DNA from: Bacteroidetes bacterium HGW-Bacteroidetes-2
Lineage (GTDB): Bacteria; Bacteroidota; Bacteroidia; Flavobacteriales; Flavobacteriaceae
Assembly (NCBI GenBank): GCA_002842575.1
Contig: PHDJ01000007.1
Location: 1 to 64,000 of the forward strand
DNA: 64,000 bases
Direction of reading: 5' to 3'
The notes under the pieces are model-generated. The model saw only the letters and a program-made list of their open reading frames with translations. It had not been told where the DNA came from and did no database searches. Of this stretch, positions 45,747 through 59,262 are shown one piece after another. A program made the position numbers and the translations under genes. Position 1 is the first letter of the stretch; the number at the start of each line of letters is the position of its first letter.

Positions 45747-46502
45747 TTATTTCCAAAAAAACAAGGCCTCTTTTACTTTCTTTTTTCTATAATATTGATT
45801 TTGAAAAGCAGTGGTTTTTTTCCACATTAATTCATCTATTTTATCAAAATCTGCGTTATATAATTTAGCGTATTCCCTACTCATGGTTTTCACCATTTCA
45901 CGCTTTGGGGTTAATCTTGAAAAATTACTAATTCGTTCTTCTAAGGAAAGTGACCTAAATTCCATTCTATTTAAATCTACTAAATAAAATGAATATCCTA
46001 CTTTTTCTTTTTTAATCAACGTATTTCCTGGAGAATGGTCCTTAAAAAGAATTCCATTTTCATGAAGTTTGTAGGTAAACTGCGTAAACTCTTTTAAAAT
46101 AGTTTCCTTATCTGGATAGTTTGGATTGCTAATCAGCTCTCTAAAGGTCAAGTCGCATTCTTGGTGTACGCTTGCATAATAACTGTCTTTTAAACCCAAA
46201 AGCGAAAAATTTTCGGCAAAAGCAACAGGCTCGGGAGTGCCAATACCATAACTTAAAAGGTAATTTGCATTCTCAAAAGAACGTTTTGCTTTTGACTTTC
46301 TGAAATATGTATAGGCTATGGTGTTTATAAGATTCGGAATTTTAAATGCTTTTACATTCAAGGTTTTCCCTCCCCATGAAAAAAGTTTTATTTTATTTCG
46401 ATTTCCTTTACCTAAAAGTGTCCCGCTTTTGTTGAAATTTACAAAAATATCGGTAATTTCAGTTATTTGAGATGCATATTTCGGATTGACTTTTATATTC
46501 AT
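45747..46502 (-). CDS. InaA/Kdo-type lipopolysaccharide kinase family protein
   Basis: A 251-residue kinase-fold protein. The catalytic loop LFKDHSPGN has Asp155 and Asn160 in DxxxxN spacing, and LVDLNRM has the metal-binding Asp176. An ATP-binding lysine is probably in the VKAFKIP strand (Lys51 or Lys54). Related proteins phosphorylate lipid A core sugars such as Kdo or heptose, so a cell-envelope role is likely. The promoter upstream is the best in the window. Confidence 0.82.
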   Translation of the reverse strand: MNIKVNPKYASQITEITDIFVNFNKSGTLLGKGNRNKIKLFSWGGKTLNVKAFKIPNLINTIAYTYFRKSKAKRSFENANYLLSYGIGTPEPVAFAENFSLLGLKDSYYASVHQECDLTFRELISNPNYPDKETILKEFTQFTYKLHENGILFKDHSPGNTLIKKEKVGYSFYLVDLNRMEFRSLSLEERISNFSRLTPKREMVKTMSREYAKLYNADFDKIDELMWKKTTAFQNQYYRKKKVKEALFFWK

Positions 46503-49737: not shown

Positions 49738-50241
49738 ATGATTTATAGATTTAGAGTTATCCTTGATGCACACGAAGACGTTTTTAGAGATCTTGAAATA
49801 GACCAATCGGCAACCATGGAAGACTTTCATAATGCCATCACACAGTCTTTTGGTTTTGGTGGACAAGAAATGGCTTCTTTTTATATTAGCAATGAAGAAT
49901 GGCTGCAGGGAGAAGAAATTTCACTTTTTGGAATGGAAGACGATGTGCGTGTAATGGGAGAAACTTCAATTGATGAAGTGGTTTCAGAAGAACAAACTAG
50001 ACTTATCTATATATATGATTTCTTAAATATGTGGACCTTTCTTGTAGAGCTTGCAGAAATTGCTGAGCCTATAGAAGGAACGCTCTATCCTAACTTGATG
50101 TTTGCTCACGGTGAGATTCCTGATGAAGCTCCCGAAAAAGAATTTGTTGCCGAAAACATCAACGAAAACCAGGATATAGACGACCTAGATTTTGATCCTG
50201 AAGATTATGAAAATCTTGATTTTAACGAAAACTGGAACTAA
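49738..50241 (+). CDS. pRiA4b ORF-3-like domain protein
   Basis: A 167-residue protein. Residues 1-120 match the pRiA4b ORF-3-like domain: IYRFRVILDAHEDVFRDLEID, TMEDFHNAITQSFGFGGQEMASFYIS, LIYIYDFLNMWTFLVELAEI. The C-terminal 45 residues are very acidic (DIDDLDFDPEDYENLDF). This domain is often labelled IS1096 passenger or TnpR-like, but here there is no transposon around it and the gene lies among core genes. Function unknown. Confidence 0.85.
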   Translation: MIYRFRVILDAHEDVFRDLEIDQSATMEDFHNAITQSFGFGGQEMASFYISNEEWLQGEEISLFGMEDDVRVMGETSIDEVVSEEQTRLIYIYDFLNMWTFLVELAEIAEPIEGTLYPNLMFAHGEIPDEAPEKEFVAENINENQDIDDLDFDPEDYENLDFNENWN

Positions 50242-51393: not shown

Positions 51394-51426
51394 AACCCTT
51401 CAAGGGTTTTAAACCCTTGAAGGGTT
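51394..51426. repeat. 33-bp palindromic repeat, copy A
   Basis: AACCCTTCAAGGGTTT (51394-51409), one base, then its exact reverse complement (51411-51426), giving 16-base arms. It lies 12 bases after the NdpA-family stop, and the 51445-52512 gene ends 18 bases further on, so it may also terminate both. A near copy of the same design lies at 61443-61475. Confidence 0.8.
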
Positions 51427-51444: not shown

Positions 51445-52512
51445 CTAAATACCTTGTCCCCTGCGAGTACTTACATTTTCATAATTTCGCTTGATAAACT
51501 CTAAGGTAGTTTTAACAATTTGCCCCATAGATTTACAACGTTTAAACCTCATGTCGTAGGTAAGCTCATAAAGTTGTTTGCGCAACTCTTTTAAATTAGA
51601 AGAGGAAGAAATATGATCTTTCAGCATGCATCGCAAAATGGAATTAAGTTTTTCTTTTGACGAAATCATCCGTTTTGCTAAAAGCGAACGTTCTTCTTTT
51701 CGGTATTGTTCAATAGAACTTTCTTGAAGATATTTAGATACCAATTGCACCATTTTTAAATTTTCCTTAAAAAATTGTGGCCTATAAACCTTTAAATTTC
51801 CTTCATAACATTGCTGGTCAAAATCAATTGCTCTTATTTTATAAATCACTTTATCAAAATCATGCGTAGGAATAATTACATAATTATACGATCGCATATC
51901 GCCCAAAAGTAGCATCATACAGCGTTCATTAAACTTAACAAACTCTTTAGCAATTTGAGTTTTACCACTTATATCTAGATTTTCCAATTCATTTTCAATA
52001 AAAACATCACCAGGTATACCAGAAATATGCTCTTCCACTAATGTATCTCCGTGAACCACAAAATTGATTCGGTTTGGTGATAAAATATGTTCTAATTCTA
52101 ATCCGTAAATCCGAGATGCATCTGCTCTTTTTATGTAAAAATAAGTGTTGTTATCATTTAAAATATTTCTAATTTTTATGCGAAATGGTTTTGAATTTCC
52201 AAAAGTGCAATAGTTTATGGCATCTACATTTAAAAAAGGTATAATATCGTCATCCCCATCTGAAAAAAGGATGGTGTATATTTTTTTTAAACTTATGTCA
52301 AGCTCCATTCTATCTGAATCAGAATAATAGACACTTACCCAAAGGGTATCTTTATCGTATTTATCATATACAGCAACAGACCCACTAAAACGAAGTAAAT
52401 CATCATAAAAAACAGGTATAGTTATAACTCGATTATATTTTTTTAAATACTGAAAAAGAAAATCCTGTACAGGAAAAGTTGGCTTTTTCTTTGACATTAA
52501 TTTTTTTTCCAT
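51445..52512 (-). CDS. Unrecognised protein with protein-kinase-like motifs
   Basis: A 355-residue protein of no family I recognise; an ATG at 52497 (MSKKKPTF) is an equally good start. Several elements resemble the kinase fold: YFYIKRADASR (Lys128, possible ATP lysine), a hinge-like LVEEHISGIPGD (158-169), a catalytic-loop-like LGDMRSYN (Asp205, Asn210, DxxxxN spacing), and IDFDQQ (Asp230, DFG-like) 25 residues later. The rest of the N-lobe (VSVYYSDSDRMELDISLKKIYTIL) is beta-rich. There is no signal peptide or membrane segment. Kinase activity is inferred and untested. It faces the NdpA-family gene. Confidence 0.7.
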   Translation of the reverse strand: MEKKLMSKKKPTFPVQDFLFQYLKKYNRVITIPVFYDDLLRFSGSVAVYDKYDKDTLWVSVYYSDSDRMELDISLKKIYTILFSDGDDDIIPFLNVDAINYCTFGNSKPFRIKIRNILNDNNTYFYIKRADASRIYGLELEHILSPNRINFVVHGDTLVEEHISGIPGDVFIENELENLDISGKTQIAKEFVKFNERCMMLLLGDMRSYNYVIIPTHDFDKVIYKIRAIDFDQQCYEGNLKVYRPQFFKENLKMVQLVSKYLQESSIEQYRKEERSLLAKRMISSKEKLNSILRCMLKDHISSSSNLKELRKQLYELTYDMRFKRCKSMGQIVKTTLEFIKRNYENVSTRRGQGI

Positions 52513-54418: not shown

Positions 54419-56836
54419 ATGCAGGTTATGGTAAAAAAAATACTTTTCATTCTTACTGTTTTTTGTTATTGCATTTCTGCAAATAGGACTTTAGCTCAAG
54501 AAATTATTTTGTACCAACAATTTAACGGACGATATGATTACACCGCTATTGGCAATACTTTAAATTTGGTCGAAAATGGATCTGCTGAACCTTGCCTTAT
54601 TAATACTTCCTCAAGTGCAACGCTAACTTTAGATCCTAATCAACAAATTGTTGCAGCCTATTTGTATTGGGCAGGTTCTGGAACAGGTGATTTTGAAGTT
54701 GAACTTAATTCCATACCCATCCAAGCTCAACGTACATTTAGCGATCAACTTGATGCTACAAGGGTCTTTTTTGCGGCTTTTGCAGAGGTTACACAACAAT
54801 TACAAAACACAGGAAACGGTCTTTATACCCTATCAGAATTAGACTTGACAAATGTAATAGGTCCTTATTGCCCAACGGGAACAAATTTTGGGGGTTGGGC
54901 TATCATAATTGTTTATGAAGATAATTCGCTAACACTAAATCAATTAAACATTTATGACGGTTTAGACAGTGTTTCTGCCAATAATAATTCATTTACATTT
55001 GTACTAGAAACTCTGAATGTAATTGATAATATCGGTGCTAAAATTGGTTTTTTAGCTTGGGAAGGAGATTCTGCAATTTCAGTAGCCGAAACCCTGCAAA
55101 TCAATGGAAATATAATTAGTAATGCCCCTTTAAATCCTGCTAACAATGCTTTTAACAGCACCAATAGTTTTACCAACAGCAGTGAACTTTGGAATATGGA
55201 TATCGATTTTTACAACATACAAAACTACATACAAATAGGAGACGAATCTGCCACAATAACCATTACTTCTGGACAAGACCTTGTAATGATAAACAATATT
55301 GTGACTGTATTAAATAGTCAATTGCCAGATGCTACCATTGAAATTAATAACATTATAGCTGGTGAAGAGTGTGGCAATAGAGAAGTTTTTATTGAATATA
55401 CAGTGTACAATCTTAATAGTACGGATGTGCTTCCCGCAAATACTCCTATCGGTTTTTTTGCTAATACCTCTATAATAGGAATCGCTGAAACAAGTAACGA
55501 AATACCCATTGACGGTTCAGAAATCGGAGAAATCACACTTACTATACCAAATGGAATCCCCGCAGAAATTGAACTAATTCTCATGGTAGATTATACCAAT
55601 CAAGTTCGAGAAATAAATGAAAATAACAACGAAGCGATTAGTTCAATCATTCTCTTAGAATTCCCTGAAATTATAGGTCTTACCAATCAAGAAAAATGTG
55701 ATGTATTAGGAATAGAATTTTTTGATTTAACAGAATCTACTTCCCAAATTGACCCAATCAATATCCTAACTTACCACACTACACAAGTAGATGCTGAAAA
55801 CAACACAAATCCTATTGCCAATCCGGAAAGTTTTGTGAATACCGAAAATCCACAAACCATATTTATTCGTGTAGCTAATGCCAATTGTTTTACTGTGGGT
55901 AGTTTTACTGTAGAAGTACAAACTTGTCCACTTCCAGACGCAACTATAACCATTACAAACGATTTGAATGCATGCCGACAACGTAATTTAACCATAGAAT
56001 ACTCTGTTTTTAATGTCCTCGCAACGGCACCTTTACCAGCCCAAACACCTATTGCATTTTATATAAATGACGTTTTAGTGGCAACTGATGTAACACAAAC
56101 AGCAATACCTATAGGCGGAGAATTACAACAAAGTATTCAACTTCAACTATCCGATGTTATTCCAGATATTTTTGAGTTGCTTTTAGTGGTTGATGACACT
56201 GGAAATGGTGTTGGAATTATTGAAGAATTAAATGAAACCAACAATACTTACACTACAACAGTACAATTTGGGAGTATTCCTGATATTGCACCATTAAATG
56301 ATTTAAAACGATGTAATGAAGGTTTTGGAAATGCCATTTTTGACCTAACACTGCAAAATGAATTTATTAGCTCTGATTTTAATGATGAAATAACCTATTT
56401 CAATAGTGTTCAGGATGCCCTGGAAAAAACAAATGCTATAGAATCCCCTTTTGCTTACCAAAGCATCTCAAACCCTCAAGCTATTTATGTTCGTTTGGAA
56501 AATGACATTTGCTTTACCATTTCTGATTTTGCAATTTTAACAGAGGATTGTCCGCCGTTTATACCAGAAGGATTTTCTCCAAATAATGATGGAATCAATG
56601 ATGTTTTTGAAATTTCAGGGTTACTGAATATCTTTTTTAACCACGAAATATTCATTTACAGCAGAGAAGGAAATCTTATTTTTAAAGGAAATAATGAAAC
56701 TGGGTTTTGGAATGGCAACGCTAATAAAGGATTGCTTTATGATGGACCAGTACCTGCAGGATTATATTATTATGTTCTGAACTTAAAACATCCCGATTTT
56801 AAAATTTTTACTGGCTGGGTTTATCTCAATAAATAG
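54419..56836 (+). CDS. Large T9SS type B surface protein with CARDB-like repeats
   Basis: An 805-residue protein with a signal peptide (ILFILTVFCYCISANRTLAQ); the second ATG at 54428 is possible. Residues 30-300 form a beta-rich DUF-like domain. Then come two copies of a pair: a CARDB-like domain (PDATIEINNIIAGEECGNR...REINENNNEA; PDATITITNDLNACRQRN...IEELNETNNTY) followed by a module of about 90 residues (EKCDVLGIEFFDLTEST...IFIRVANANCFTVGSF). The C-terminus is a gliding-motility (T9SS type B) domain: FIPEGFSPNNDGINDVFEI...GLYYYVLNLKH. It is a likely surface adhesin or binding protein. Confidence 0.85.
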   Translation: MQVMVKKILFILTVFCYCISANRTLAQEIILYQQFNGRYDYTAIGNTLNLVENGSAEPCLINTSSSATLTLDPNQQIVAAYLYWAGSGTGDFEVELNSIPIQAQRTFSDQLDATRVFFAAFAEVTQQLQNTGNGLYTLSELDLTNVIGPYCPTGTNFGGWAIIIVYEDNSLTLNQLNIYDGLDSVSANNNSFTFVLETLNVIDNIGAKIGFLAWEGDSAISVAETLQINGNIISNAPLNPANNAFNSTNSFTNSSELWNMDIDFYNIQNYIQIGDESATITITSGQDLVMINNIVTVLNSQLPDATIEINNIIAGEECGNREVFIEYTVYNLNSTDVLPANTPIGFFANTSIIGIAETSNEIPIDGSEIGEITLTIPNGIPAEIELILMVDYTNQVREINENNNEAISSIILLEFPEIIGLTNQEKCDVLGIEFFDLTESTSQIDPINILTYHTTQVDAENNTNPIANPESFVNTENPQTIFIRVANANCFTVGSFTVEVQTCPLPDATITITNDLNACRQRNLTIEYSVFNVLATAPLPAQTPIAFYINDVLVATDVTQTAIPIGGELQQSIQLQLSDVIPDIFELLLVVDDTGNGVGIIEELNETNNTYTTTVQFGSIPDIAPLNDLKRCNEGFGNAIFDLTLQNEFISSDFNDEITYFNSVQDALEKTNAIESPFAYQSISNPQAIYVRLENDICFTISDFAILTEDCPPFIPEGFSPNNDGINDVFEISGLLNIFFNHEIFIYSREGNLIFKGNNETGFWNGNANKGLLYDGPVPAGLYYYVLNLKHPDFKIFTGWVYLNK

Positions 56837-56925: not shown

Positions 56926-59262
56926 ATGAAGTTTTTATTTTGCATTTTCTTCGCATTTTATTTTTGTTTTTCAGCTACAGCACAATATATTCAAGTAGAT
57001 GCAAATACATATACACCTCAGCAATTAATAGAAGATATTTTAATAAATAGTGATTGCATACAAAACATTGCAATTACCAATGTTGTAGGCGGTAACTTTA
57101 GCGATGGCGATAAAAGTTTTGGTTACTTCAATAGTAACGGAAGTGATTTTCCTTTTTCTAGCGGACTTGTGATGAGCACAGGAAGGTTAAGTAATGTGCC
57201 TGGGCCAAACAATTCATTAAGCGACGATAATGCCCCCGGATGGCTTGGAGACGCAGACCTAGAAGCCGCTCTTGGCATCAGTAACACAACCAATGCCACC
57301 ATTATTGAATTTGATATTATACCCAATGCCGATAATATTCGATTTCGCTATTTATTTGCTTCCGAAGAATACCAAGAAAACAACCAAAACACCTGTATTT
57401 TTTCAGATGCCTTTGCCTTTTTAATTAAACCCATTGGTGGCACTTATATAAATATTGCTGTGGTTCCTGGCACAAATACTCCTGTACAGGTAACCACAGT
57501 ACATTCTGGAATTCCTGGTGCTTGCCCACCAATTAATGAGAATTATTTTGGTAGTTGGAATGGAACAAACACTCCTATAAATTTTAATGGCCAAACCAAA
57601 ATACTGCTTGCTGAAACTCCTGTAATTCCCAATCAAGTATACCATATCAAACTAGTTATTGCTGACGAACAGAATTTTCGCTTTGACTCTGCTGTATTTC
57701 TAGAAGCAGAAAGCTTTAATATTGGAGCTGATTTAGGTCCAGATAGAATTTTTGCTACCAATAATCCTCTATGTGATGGTGAAAGTTATACACTAGACGC
57801 TACACCTTCAGAAACCAATCCTTTAGGATATACTTGGTATAAAAACGGTGTTTTAATCGATGGTGAAACAAATGCTATACTCCTTGTAAGCACACCTGGT
57901 TTATATAGAGTTGAAATTGATTATGGGTTAGGATGCATAGCCATTGATGAGGTATTAATAGAATTTGCAAGCACCGCCAATGTACAAAATGCTGTACTTT
58001 TTCAATGCGAAGAAAACGTCACAGGTATCGCTAACTTTAACCTCTTTGATGCCTCAGAAGAAATCACTAACGGTGATAGCTCTTTGCAAGTACAATCCTT
58101 TTTTAAAACGCTAGCGGCTGCAGAAAATAATACCAATTCCATTATAAACCCTAATTCCTATACCAATACAATAGTAAATGAAATTGTGTATGCGCGTGTT
58201 ATAACTCAAAGCAATTGTTACGGAATAGCACAAGTAACATTAAGAACAACTGACAATACACTTAACCCTGTTGAACTTACAGCCTGTTCCTTTTCTACTA
58301 CCCCTTTCTTTGCTTTATTTGACCTGGCTGAAGCTACCGTAATTCTTGCCAGCGAAATATCGGGAGCTATTCAAGTAAATTACCACCTAAATATGGAAGA
58401 TGCTTTACAAGCACAAAATCCATTAAACACAAACTTTACAAATACGCTTCCTAATTTTCAGGTTATTTATGCAAGAATTTCCAACAGCCAAGGATGTTTT
58501 GGTATTGCTCAAATAAATTTACAAGTCATTGCTTCACCACTTCTAGAAGGACCAGATTCAGAAACATATTGCCTAAATACTTTTCCAGAAAAAATATCAC
58601 TATCCTCAGGGCTTATTGGAAATCCTTTAAATTTTACATTTTTATGGTCAACGGGAGCTACAACGCCCACAATTCAAATAAATGAAGCCGGAATTTATTC
58701 AGTTATAGTAACTTCAACACAAATATATAACGGACTGCCTTATACCTGCTCTTCCTCTAAAACCATTACCGTAAATACTTCAGAAGCTGCTCAGGTATCC
58801 TATACTTTAGAAGGAAATATAGGAAGTCAAACTATTATCGTAGAAGTAATTGGCAGCGGAAATTATCTATTTGCTTTAGACAATGAAAACGGTCCGTATC
58901 AAGAAAGTCCTATTTTTGAAAATATTCGAGGTGGTGTGCATACTATTTATGTTTTGGATACAAAAGGATGTGGTATTGTGAGCAAAAAAGCCTATTTAAT
59001 CGACTTTCCAAACTTTTTTACTCCAAATAACGATGGCATCCATGACTATTGGCAGATTAGAGGTCTTGATTTTAAAAACCTACAATTAGAACGTGTAGAA
59101 ATATTTGATCGTTATAGCAAAATTCTTCACGTTTTAAAATTAAAAAGTAAAGGATGGGATGGCACCTATAGAGGAAAACCACAACTCAATTCCGATTATT
59201 GGTTTAAAGCGACATTTAAAGATGGAAGTGTTTATAAAGGCCATTTTACATTAAAAAGATAG
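56926..59262 (+). CDS. Choice-of-anchor L T9SS type B surface protein
   Basis: A 778-residue exported protein (signal FFAFYFCFSATAQ). Residues 25-265 form the choice-of-anchor L domain: IAITNVVGGNFSDGDKSFGYF, FPFSSGLVMSTGRLSNVPGPN, RFRYLFASEEYQEN, YHIKLVIADEQNFRFDSAVFLEA. An Ig-like segment follows (CDGESYTLDATPSETNPLGYTWYKNG), then two copies of the same 90-residue module found in the upstream protein. The C-terminal T9SS type B domain is FPNFFTPNNDGIHDYWQIRG...GHFTLK. The two genes are neighbours and similar in design. Confidence 0.87.
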   Translation: MKFLFCIFFAFYFCFSATAQYIQVDANTYTPQQLIEDILINSDCIQNIAITNVVGGNFSDGDKSFGYFNSNGSDFPFSSGLVMSTGRLSNVPGPNNSLSDDNAPGWLGDADLEAALGISNTTNATIIEFDIIPNADNIRFRYLFASEEYQENNQNTCIFSDAFAFLIKPIGGTYINIAVVPGTNTPVQVTTVHSGIPGACPPINENYFGSWNGTNTPINFNGQTKILLAETPVIPNQVYHIKLVIADEQNFRFDSAVFLEAESFNIGADLGPDRIFATNNPLCDGESYTLDATPSETNPLGYTWYKNGVLIDGETNAILLVSTPGLYRVEIDYGLGCIAIDEVLIEFASTANVQNAVLFQCEENVTGIANFNLFDASEEITNGDSSLQVQSFFKTLAAAENNTNSIINPNSYTNTIVNEIVYARVITQSNCYGIAQVTLRTTDNTLNPVELTACSFSTTPFFALFDLAEATVILASEISGAIQVNYHLNMEDALQAQNPLNTNFTNTLPNFQVIYARISNSQGCFGIAQINLQVIASPLLEGPDSETYCLNTFPEKISLSSGLIGNPLNFTFLWSTGATTPTIQINEAGIYSVIVTSTQIYNGLPYTCSSSKTITVNTSEAAQVSYTLEGNIGSQTIIVEVIGSGNYLFALDNENGPYQESPIFENIRGGVHTIYVLDTKGCGIVSKKAYLIDFPNFFTPNNDGIHDYWQIRGLDFKNLQLERVEIFDRYSKILHVLKLKSKGWDGTYRGKPQLNSDYWFKATFKDGSVYKGHFTLKR

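Follow-up and report, generated by a model that had tools for sequence, protein, structure and literature searches.

What does the gene at 51445..52512 of the window (the whole stretch of DNA analysed, 64,000 nucleotides long) encode: a kinase of a known family that has diverged beyond recognition, a kinase of a new family, or no kinase at all? The open reading frame is genuine, and runs for 355 amino acids on the minus strand from an ATG at 52512 to a stop at 51445. From the order of a few residues, the initial annotation had suggested an undescribed atypical kinase. Since these residues prove to be conserved and the predicted fold is kinase-like, that reading is supported, with the activity standing as a prediction. 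The features on which the argument turns are the following.

51445..52512, minus strand: whole gene, for a protein-kinase-like protein of an undescribed family (open reading frame, distribution and structure model)
52234..52512, minus strand: N-terminal residues 1-93, which lie outside the kinase-like core, with conserved K10, R28, Y36, D55, W58 and Y79
52180..52200, minus strand: GNSKPFR (residues 105-111), turn between strands 94-102 and 110-116 of the core (conservation and model)
52129..52131, minus strand: K128, the expected ATP-phosphate lysine at the PKA K72 position, in strand 121-129
52081..52119, minus strand: helix 132-144 at the alpha-C position, with E139 and E141 (conservation and model)
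52006..52041, minus strand: hinge-like stretch, residues 158-169, between strand 157-161 and helix 168-174
51883..51903, minus strand: GDM[RH]xxN (residues 204-210), putative catalytic loop with D205 and N210 (conservation)
51811..51828, minus strand: IDFDQQ (residues 229-234), with the putative metal-binding D230 and a second Asp, D232
51394..51426, minus strand: terminator-like inverted repeat with a 15-pair stem, between the kinase-like gene and a convergent NA37 gene

Conservation was read from an alignment of 129 rows, of which 124 are distinct and in which a few genomes were entered twice. Invariant throughout are K128, D131, R134, E141, E160, H162, G165, K189, K193, L203, D205, N210, D218, D230, F231, D232, Q233, Q234, Y243, N251, Q269, Y270, E273 and R281. 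Among these are all the residues first singled out at the locus, each where it had been placed: K128 in YFYIKRADASR, D205 and N210 in GDMRSYN (LLGDMRSYN), and D230 in IDFD (AIDFDQQ). The hinge-like stretch proposed at 158-169 is present as well, with its E160, H162 and G165, and the interval from the loop Asp to the metal Asp, D205 to D230, was rightly counted as 25 residues. Within the catalytic loop G204 is found in 127/129 rows and M206 in 128/129, while position 207, two residues after the presumed catalytic Asp, is Arg in 116 rows and His in 13; the loop reads GDMRSYN, or GDMH[SA][GAS]N in distant members. The GNSKPFR turn (N106, P109 and R111 in 129/129 rows, G105 and F110 in 127/129) is likely the phosphate-binding loop, to judge from its conservation and its place in the model. 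E139 occurs in 125 of the 129 rows, with Asp in the remaining four, and either E139 or E141 may be the partner of K128 in the modelled structure.

Key residues named for the protein-kinase-like (PKL) superfamily are, in PKA numbering, K72, E91, H164, D166, N171 and D184 (PMC1821047). Every row of the alignment has the expected lysine for ATP, on the modelled third strand, and a Glu in the next helix (K128 and E141), as well as a DxxxxN loop and a metal Asp (D205, N210 and D230). The position of H164 is taken by Leu (L203, 129/129). Points against a kinase are that there is no HRD and that the family has DFD in place of DFG, a second Asp being present. A pattern combining these elements (hxK, 50-100 residues, [GH]DxxxxN, 14-30 residues, hD[FWY][DEG]) appeared in 7 of 20,000 shuffles of the protein, a count that flatters the match since the pattern was written after the sequence had been viewed.

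The AlphaFold model, built on 81 aligned sequences, has a pLDDT of 86.2 and a pTM of 0.85. Its N-lobe consists of strands 94-102, 110-116 and 121-129 (K128), helix 132-144 (E139, E141) and strands 151-154 and 157-161. Helices 168-174 and 181-205 follow, the second with D205 at its end, and then two strands, the second of which (221-233) carries D230. In this model the order of the elements is that of a kinase domain, and a bilobal kinase fold is predicted. The annotation had proposed comparing the predicted structure with the kinase fold, and solved kinases indeed come out best, weakly in Foldseek and again in VIA-align. Against the PDB, Foldseek gave eight matches at E<=0.001 (best 4.9e-4), all to protein kinase or pseudokinase domains, and against viral models its best matches were Ser/Thr kinases (E 2.5e-4). 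The alignments are poor, with TM-scores of 0.21-0.29 by query length and rmsd of 9.9-19.3 A over the best 50 rows. In VIA-align, which compared Foldseek's own 1000 best chains, so that other kinase groups may lie beyond, the best 50 entries are all PI3K, PI4K, mTOR, ATM or SMG1 kinases, at Z 8.4-11.6 against a best Z of typically 7-8 for models without a clear match. VPS34 is the top entry (Z 11.6, 258 residues, 4.3 A). No HipA entry stands among the best 50 rows of Foldseek, or among the best 50 of VIA-align within the same 1000 chains, an absence that carries no weight against a HipA-like fold. Among the structures compared, the modelled fold is closest to PI3K/PIKK. It is extremely unlikely that the fold is an artefact of modelling and the motif order a coincidence. 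The low Foldseek TM-scores would fit such a reading, as would a model of residues 90-355 from the single sequence, with a pLDDT of only 42.4; but the family model is confident, and the invariant residues and the fold agree independently of each other.

Inspection by eye revealed no signal peptide or membrane span in the 355-aa protein, which is presumably cytosolic. It would bind ATP and transfer phosphate, as its residues and modelled fold suggest. ATP would lie between the two lobes, its phosphates positioned by K128 in a pair with E141 (or E139); the metal would be bound by N210, D230 and perhaps D232, and D205 would orient the acceptor hydroxyl. A kinase fold can also serve other ends, and PKL proteins engaged in AMPylation-type nucleotide transfer, in glutamylation or in non-catalytic, nucleotide-binding regulation are among those described in PMC10870513. 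Such an activity is very unlikely here: the unusual loop after D230 (IDFDQQ) and the Met rather than Arg one residue after D205 would suit it, but the residues for ordinary phosphate transfer are all present and invariant. Pseudokinases usually lose some of their catalytic residues. Given the invariance of K128, E141, D205, N210, D230 and D232, the confident model and the structural matches, there is good reason to regard the protein as a phosphotransferase that is cytosolic and catalytically intact, has the PKL fold and comes from a family absent from Pfam and NCBIfam.

The lack of any known kinase signature, as first noted at this locus, holds at the sequence level: neither the window protein nor the scanned members of its family have a credible match in Pfam, NCBIfam, the PDB sequences, PADLOC or PHROGs. 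The Pfam scans of the family covered 24 and 32 members, and none of these was recognised as AceK, HipA, APH or PI3K. Residues 41-73 of the window protein resemble PF21743 (Tudor) weakly, at 12.4 bits for a cut-off of 27.2; PTM_DIR17_Tudor matches 10/24 members at E<=1 (best 0.0022), and CFAP300 matches 1/32 (E 0.0011). These and the other stray Pfam matches were judged to be due to chance, since they lie below the cut-off or in single members.

Profile comparison with hhalign was made with full families and with domains only, the PIK profile consisting of VPS34, mTOR and p110-gamma. For full families the E-values are 0.65 for PIK, 0.31 for HipA, 0.18 for APH, 0.085 for Kdo and 0.12 for AceK, and nine unrelated families used as controls gave 0.14-0.8. 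For domains only they are 0.43, 0.12, 0.025, 0.057 and 0.054 in the same order, and six unrelated controls gave 0.062-0.65, the best being Sua5 at 0.062. When columns were shuffled, the observed score was reached in 26 of 40 shuffles for PIK, 10 for HipA, 1 for APH, 3 for Kdo and 1 for AceK; the Sua5 control also gave 1 of 40, the same as APH and AceK. These profiles show significant kinship to none of the kinase families tested. APH, AceK and Kdo with domains only, and Kdo and AceK with full families, come out marginally better than the best control, and such small leads are not counted as kinship. HipA was rejected by sequence, having no profile similarity beyond that of the controls, and so was membership of the PI3K family, whose PIK alignment was equalled or beaten by the shuffles just mentioned.

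Likeness to known systems can nevertheless be traced motif by motif. In the PI3/PI4 kinase/PIKK superfamily (VPS34, p110, PI4KB, mTOR, ATM, SMG1) a DxxxxN loop is likewise followed by hDF. The D and R of KHGDDLRQD in VPS34 and p110-gamma match the window protein at K+3 (D131) and K+6 (R134), where mTOR has E and R, a likeness found by eye and post hoc. From P109 to K128 there are 19 residues in the window protein, and the same spacing is 18 in VPS34 and mTOR and 23 in p110-gamma. The two Asp residues are 25 apart as against 18-19 in VPS34, mTOR and p110-gamma, as counted by eye. PI3/PI4 kinases have GDRHxxN and DFG, whereas the window's family has GDM[RH]xxN and DFD; they also have an R-Q-D that the family is without, and the window protein is short and stands alone.

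AceK (PF06315) was examined as a candidate on account of two strings in common, GDM-xxx-N and D-x-D. Bacteroidota AceK has GDM-xxx-N and D-[FY]-D (NIFPGDMMTKNFGL ... FYDYDEI), and the E. coli sequence shows the GDM-xxx-N and D-x-D strings too; this likeness was again seen by eye and post hoc. AceK carries a large regulatory domain and measures about 574 aa, while the window protein has 355 aa and is without that domain. The profile comparison gave AceK no support, its alignment being out of register. In HipA (PF07804) of Bacteroidota the loop is DDHTKN, to be compared with the DMHxxN of 13/129 rows in the window's family, which has no match to either of the HipA_N and HipA_C domains. Two HipA-type kinases are encoded elsewhere in the window's own genome (C68:51669-52307 and C71:29988-30656). 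APH (PF01636) and Kdo/WaaP (PF06293) resemble the family in having an IDFD-like metal motif and a DxxxxN loop; they differ in that Pfam finds no match and the E-values given above are not significant. The window encodes another kinase-like protein, of 251 aa (45747-46502, minus strand), which is of the Kdo/WaaP type (PF06293, E 3.7e-4, 20.4 bits, slightly below the cut-off of 21.3). It is a separate gene, and relatives of it lie near the kinase-like gene in 14 loci.

A kinase-methyltransferase family of the Lani_1194/NoeA type is reported from Flavobacteriales, and is described as carrying Arg where the catalytic Lys would stand, with a fused methyltransferase in 94% (PMC9758233). It too is bacterial, has the PKL fold and occurs in Flavobacteriales, but in the window's family the Lys never varies, and a methyltransferase domain was not found; the two were set apart by this description.

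It is therefore necessary to ask whether the protein might be a far-diverged member of AceK, HipA, APH or the PI3/PI4 kinases. We consider this quite improbable. The strings shared with AceK speak for it, as do unsupervised local alignments that bring the catalytic loop into register with the loops of PIK, HipA and APH, and the domain-only E-values of APH, AceK and Kdo, slightly under that of Sua5. Yet the hhalign probabilities are all <2%, and Sua5 performs equally well in the shuffles. Besides AceK's missing register and the absence of its regulatory domain, true AceK is found in 6/198 genomes and lives side by side with the new family in four of the six (G114, G149, G184, G231). PF00454, the PI3/PI4 kinase profile, has a match in 0/198 genomes of the phylum, and Pfam assigns no member to any of the four families. 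The protein is probably an active protein-kinase-like enzyme of an undescribed family, on the combined reading of residues and model; what is new is the family rather than the kind. The PKL superfamily would gain a further family, one that leans structurally towards PI3K/PIKK, a group hardly known in these bacteria. The literature covered, outside whose scope lie subscription journals, preprints and the 72-family list in the KINtaro supplement, held no description of the family.

The family is present in 24/40 genomes among relatives, the window's own genome counted, and in 99/395 genomes drawn from the phylum Bacteroidota. These 99 carriers comprise 37 of the 41 genomes from the window's own family, 2 from its order, 32 from its class and 28 from other classes. 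One match per genome is the rule (97 of 99). Of the two exceptions, G286 has a gene remnant broken in two, both pieces being interrupted by an internal stop (C1:3158148-3158410), which on its sequence is a decaying copy of the kinase-like gene. The other, G129, is the sole genome of the 395 with two intact-looking copies (C31:94195-95199 and C3:105239-106207), the second being more diverged (338 vs 429 bits). A scan of named genomes confirmed at least 588 stretches for the family, the best 80 of which include loci from Leeuwenhoekiella, Aquimarina, Tenacibaculum, Maribacter, Zobellia and Flavobacterium. Over best segments, identity to the window protein is 61% at one locus within the order and 41-52% at 23 loci outside it, among which four genomes may be counted twice. 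These comparisons indicate an old, well-conserved family that is mostly single-copy in Bacteroidota. With conservation of this degree between classes and every catalytic residue invariant, a kinase-fold enzyme likely has an important role. The phages and plasmids searched gave no family match, and of 39 stretches in viral contigs that fitted the pattern none was confirmed as family. A defence, phage or plasmid gene was rejected, the PADLOC and PHROGs matches being isolated strays in 1/32 members each.

What the enzyme might act on has to be sought around the gene. In the window its divergent neighbour on one side is an ABC transporter ATPase, and terminator-like sites number 4 in the region vs 0.4 expected. 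The divergent ABC transporter adjoins the gene in 57/100 Flavobacteriaceae-type loci, and the convergent NA37 protein in 28/100, lying somewhere in the stretch in 38. A PRiA4_ORF3-like protein, whose family is without an assigned role, is encoded at 49738-50241 on the plus strand (PF07929, E 3.7e-19), and its gene is retained close to the kinase-like gene in 57/100 loci. Gene calls were usable at 100 loci, both near and far; a same-strand neighbour is found upstream in only 25 of them (15 within 60 bp) and downstream in 18 (7 within 60 bp), which means that the gene mostly stands alone. No operon was found in the window's family.

The picture is different in the phylum's other classes. There bshA, the first bacillithiol gene, lies directly upstream on the same strand, across a gap of 6-147 bp, in 19/28 loci. 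This adjacency spans 7/9 families, the other two being without it. Two of these upstream genes are named BshA by NCBIfam (E 2.1e-173 and 3.1e-166), and the remaining ones were called by their identity of 68-96% to one of the two. In many of these bacteria bacillithiol is the chief thiol. Production of bacillithiol or N-methyl-bacillithiol is reported for members of the phylum, Polaribacter included (PMC6282198). From the place of the gene behind bshA in other classes, it may be guessed that the kinase has its part in bacillithiol metabolism, whether its target is an intermediate or derivative that it would phosphorylate or an enzyme of the pathway that it would regulate; we consider this rather doubtful. 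Unlikely as a whole is the fuller proposal of an undescribed, ancient Bacteroidota kinase family that would phosphorylate a bacillithiol precursor or derivative, or switch a bacillithiol enzyme on and off. The published bacillithiol schemes consulted contain no phosphorylation step. Such a step on bacillithiol is the one function that the bshA neighbourhood makes directly testable.

More probably, the bacillithiol neighbourhood reflects gene order shared within one class, and the substrate lies in another pathway; it could be a protein, for instance, as it is for HipA and for PIK-related kinases. Gene order in the other classes is conserved generally, as a convergent metallo-hydrolase is also retained there, 33-141 bp downstream, in 22/28 loci. 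No bshA was found in the stretch at any of 32 loci from the window's class or order, nor near the gene in the window and in the best 80 of the at least 588 named Flavobacteriaceae-type loci, where the best matches to bshA are other glycosyltransferases at 24-32% identity. The scarcity of same-strand neighbours points the same way. What tells against an explanation by shared gene order is that bshA adjacency reaches 7/9 families, as compared with 4/9 for the metallo-hydrolase (within 150 bp). BshC is found in 384/395 genomes of the phylum, including all 99 kinase carriers, and the kinase occurs in no genome of the 395 without BshC, a co-occurrence that is uninformative since BshC is nearly universal and negatives are few.

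The convergent hydrolase itself has the metallo-beta-lactamase fold in L148, L149, L153, L155, L156 and other loci, and resembles hydroxyacylglutathione hydrolase (E 6.1e-24, below the cut-off). In L152, two open reading frames behind the kinase, there is a 477-aa protein with a metallo-hydrolase-like start that clusters with rhodanese-like reading frames. We take it to be possibly a persulfide dioxygenase, which would lead to thiol or sulfur metabolism again. Finally, two long, secreted-looking proteins are encoded in the window on the plus strand, at 54419-56836 and 56926-59262. Their ends, FSPNNDGINDVFEISG and FTPNNDGIHDYWQIRG, are reminiscent of the C-terminal domains of gliding motility and type IX secretion.
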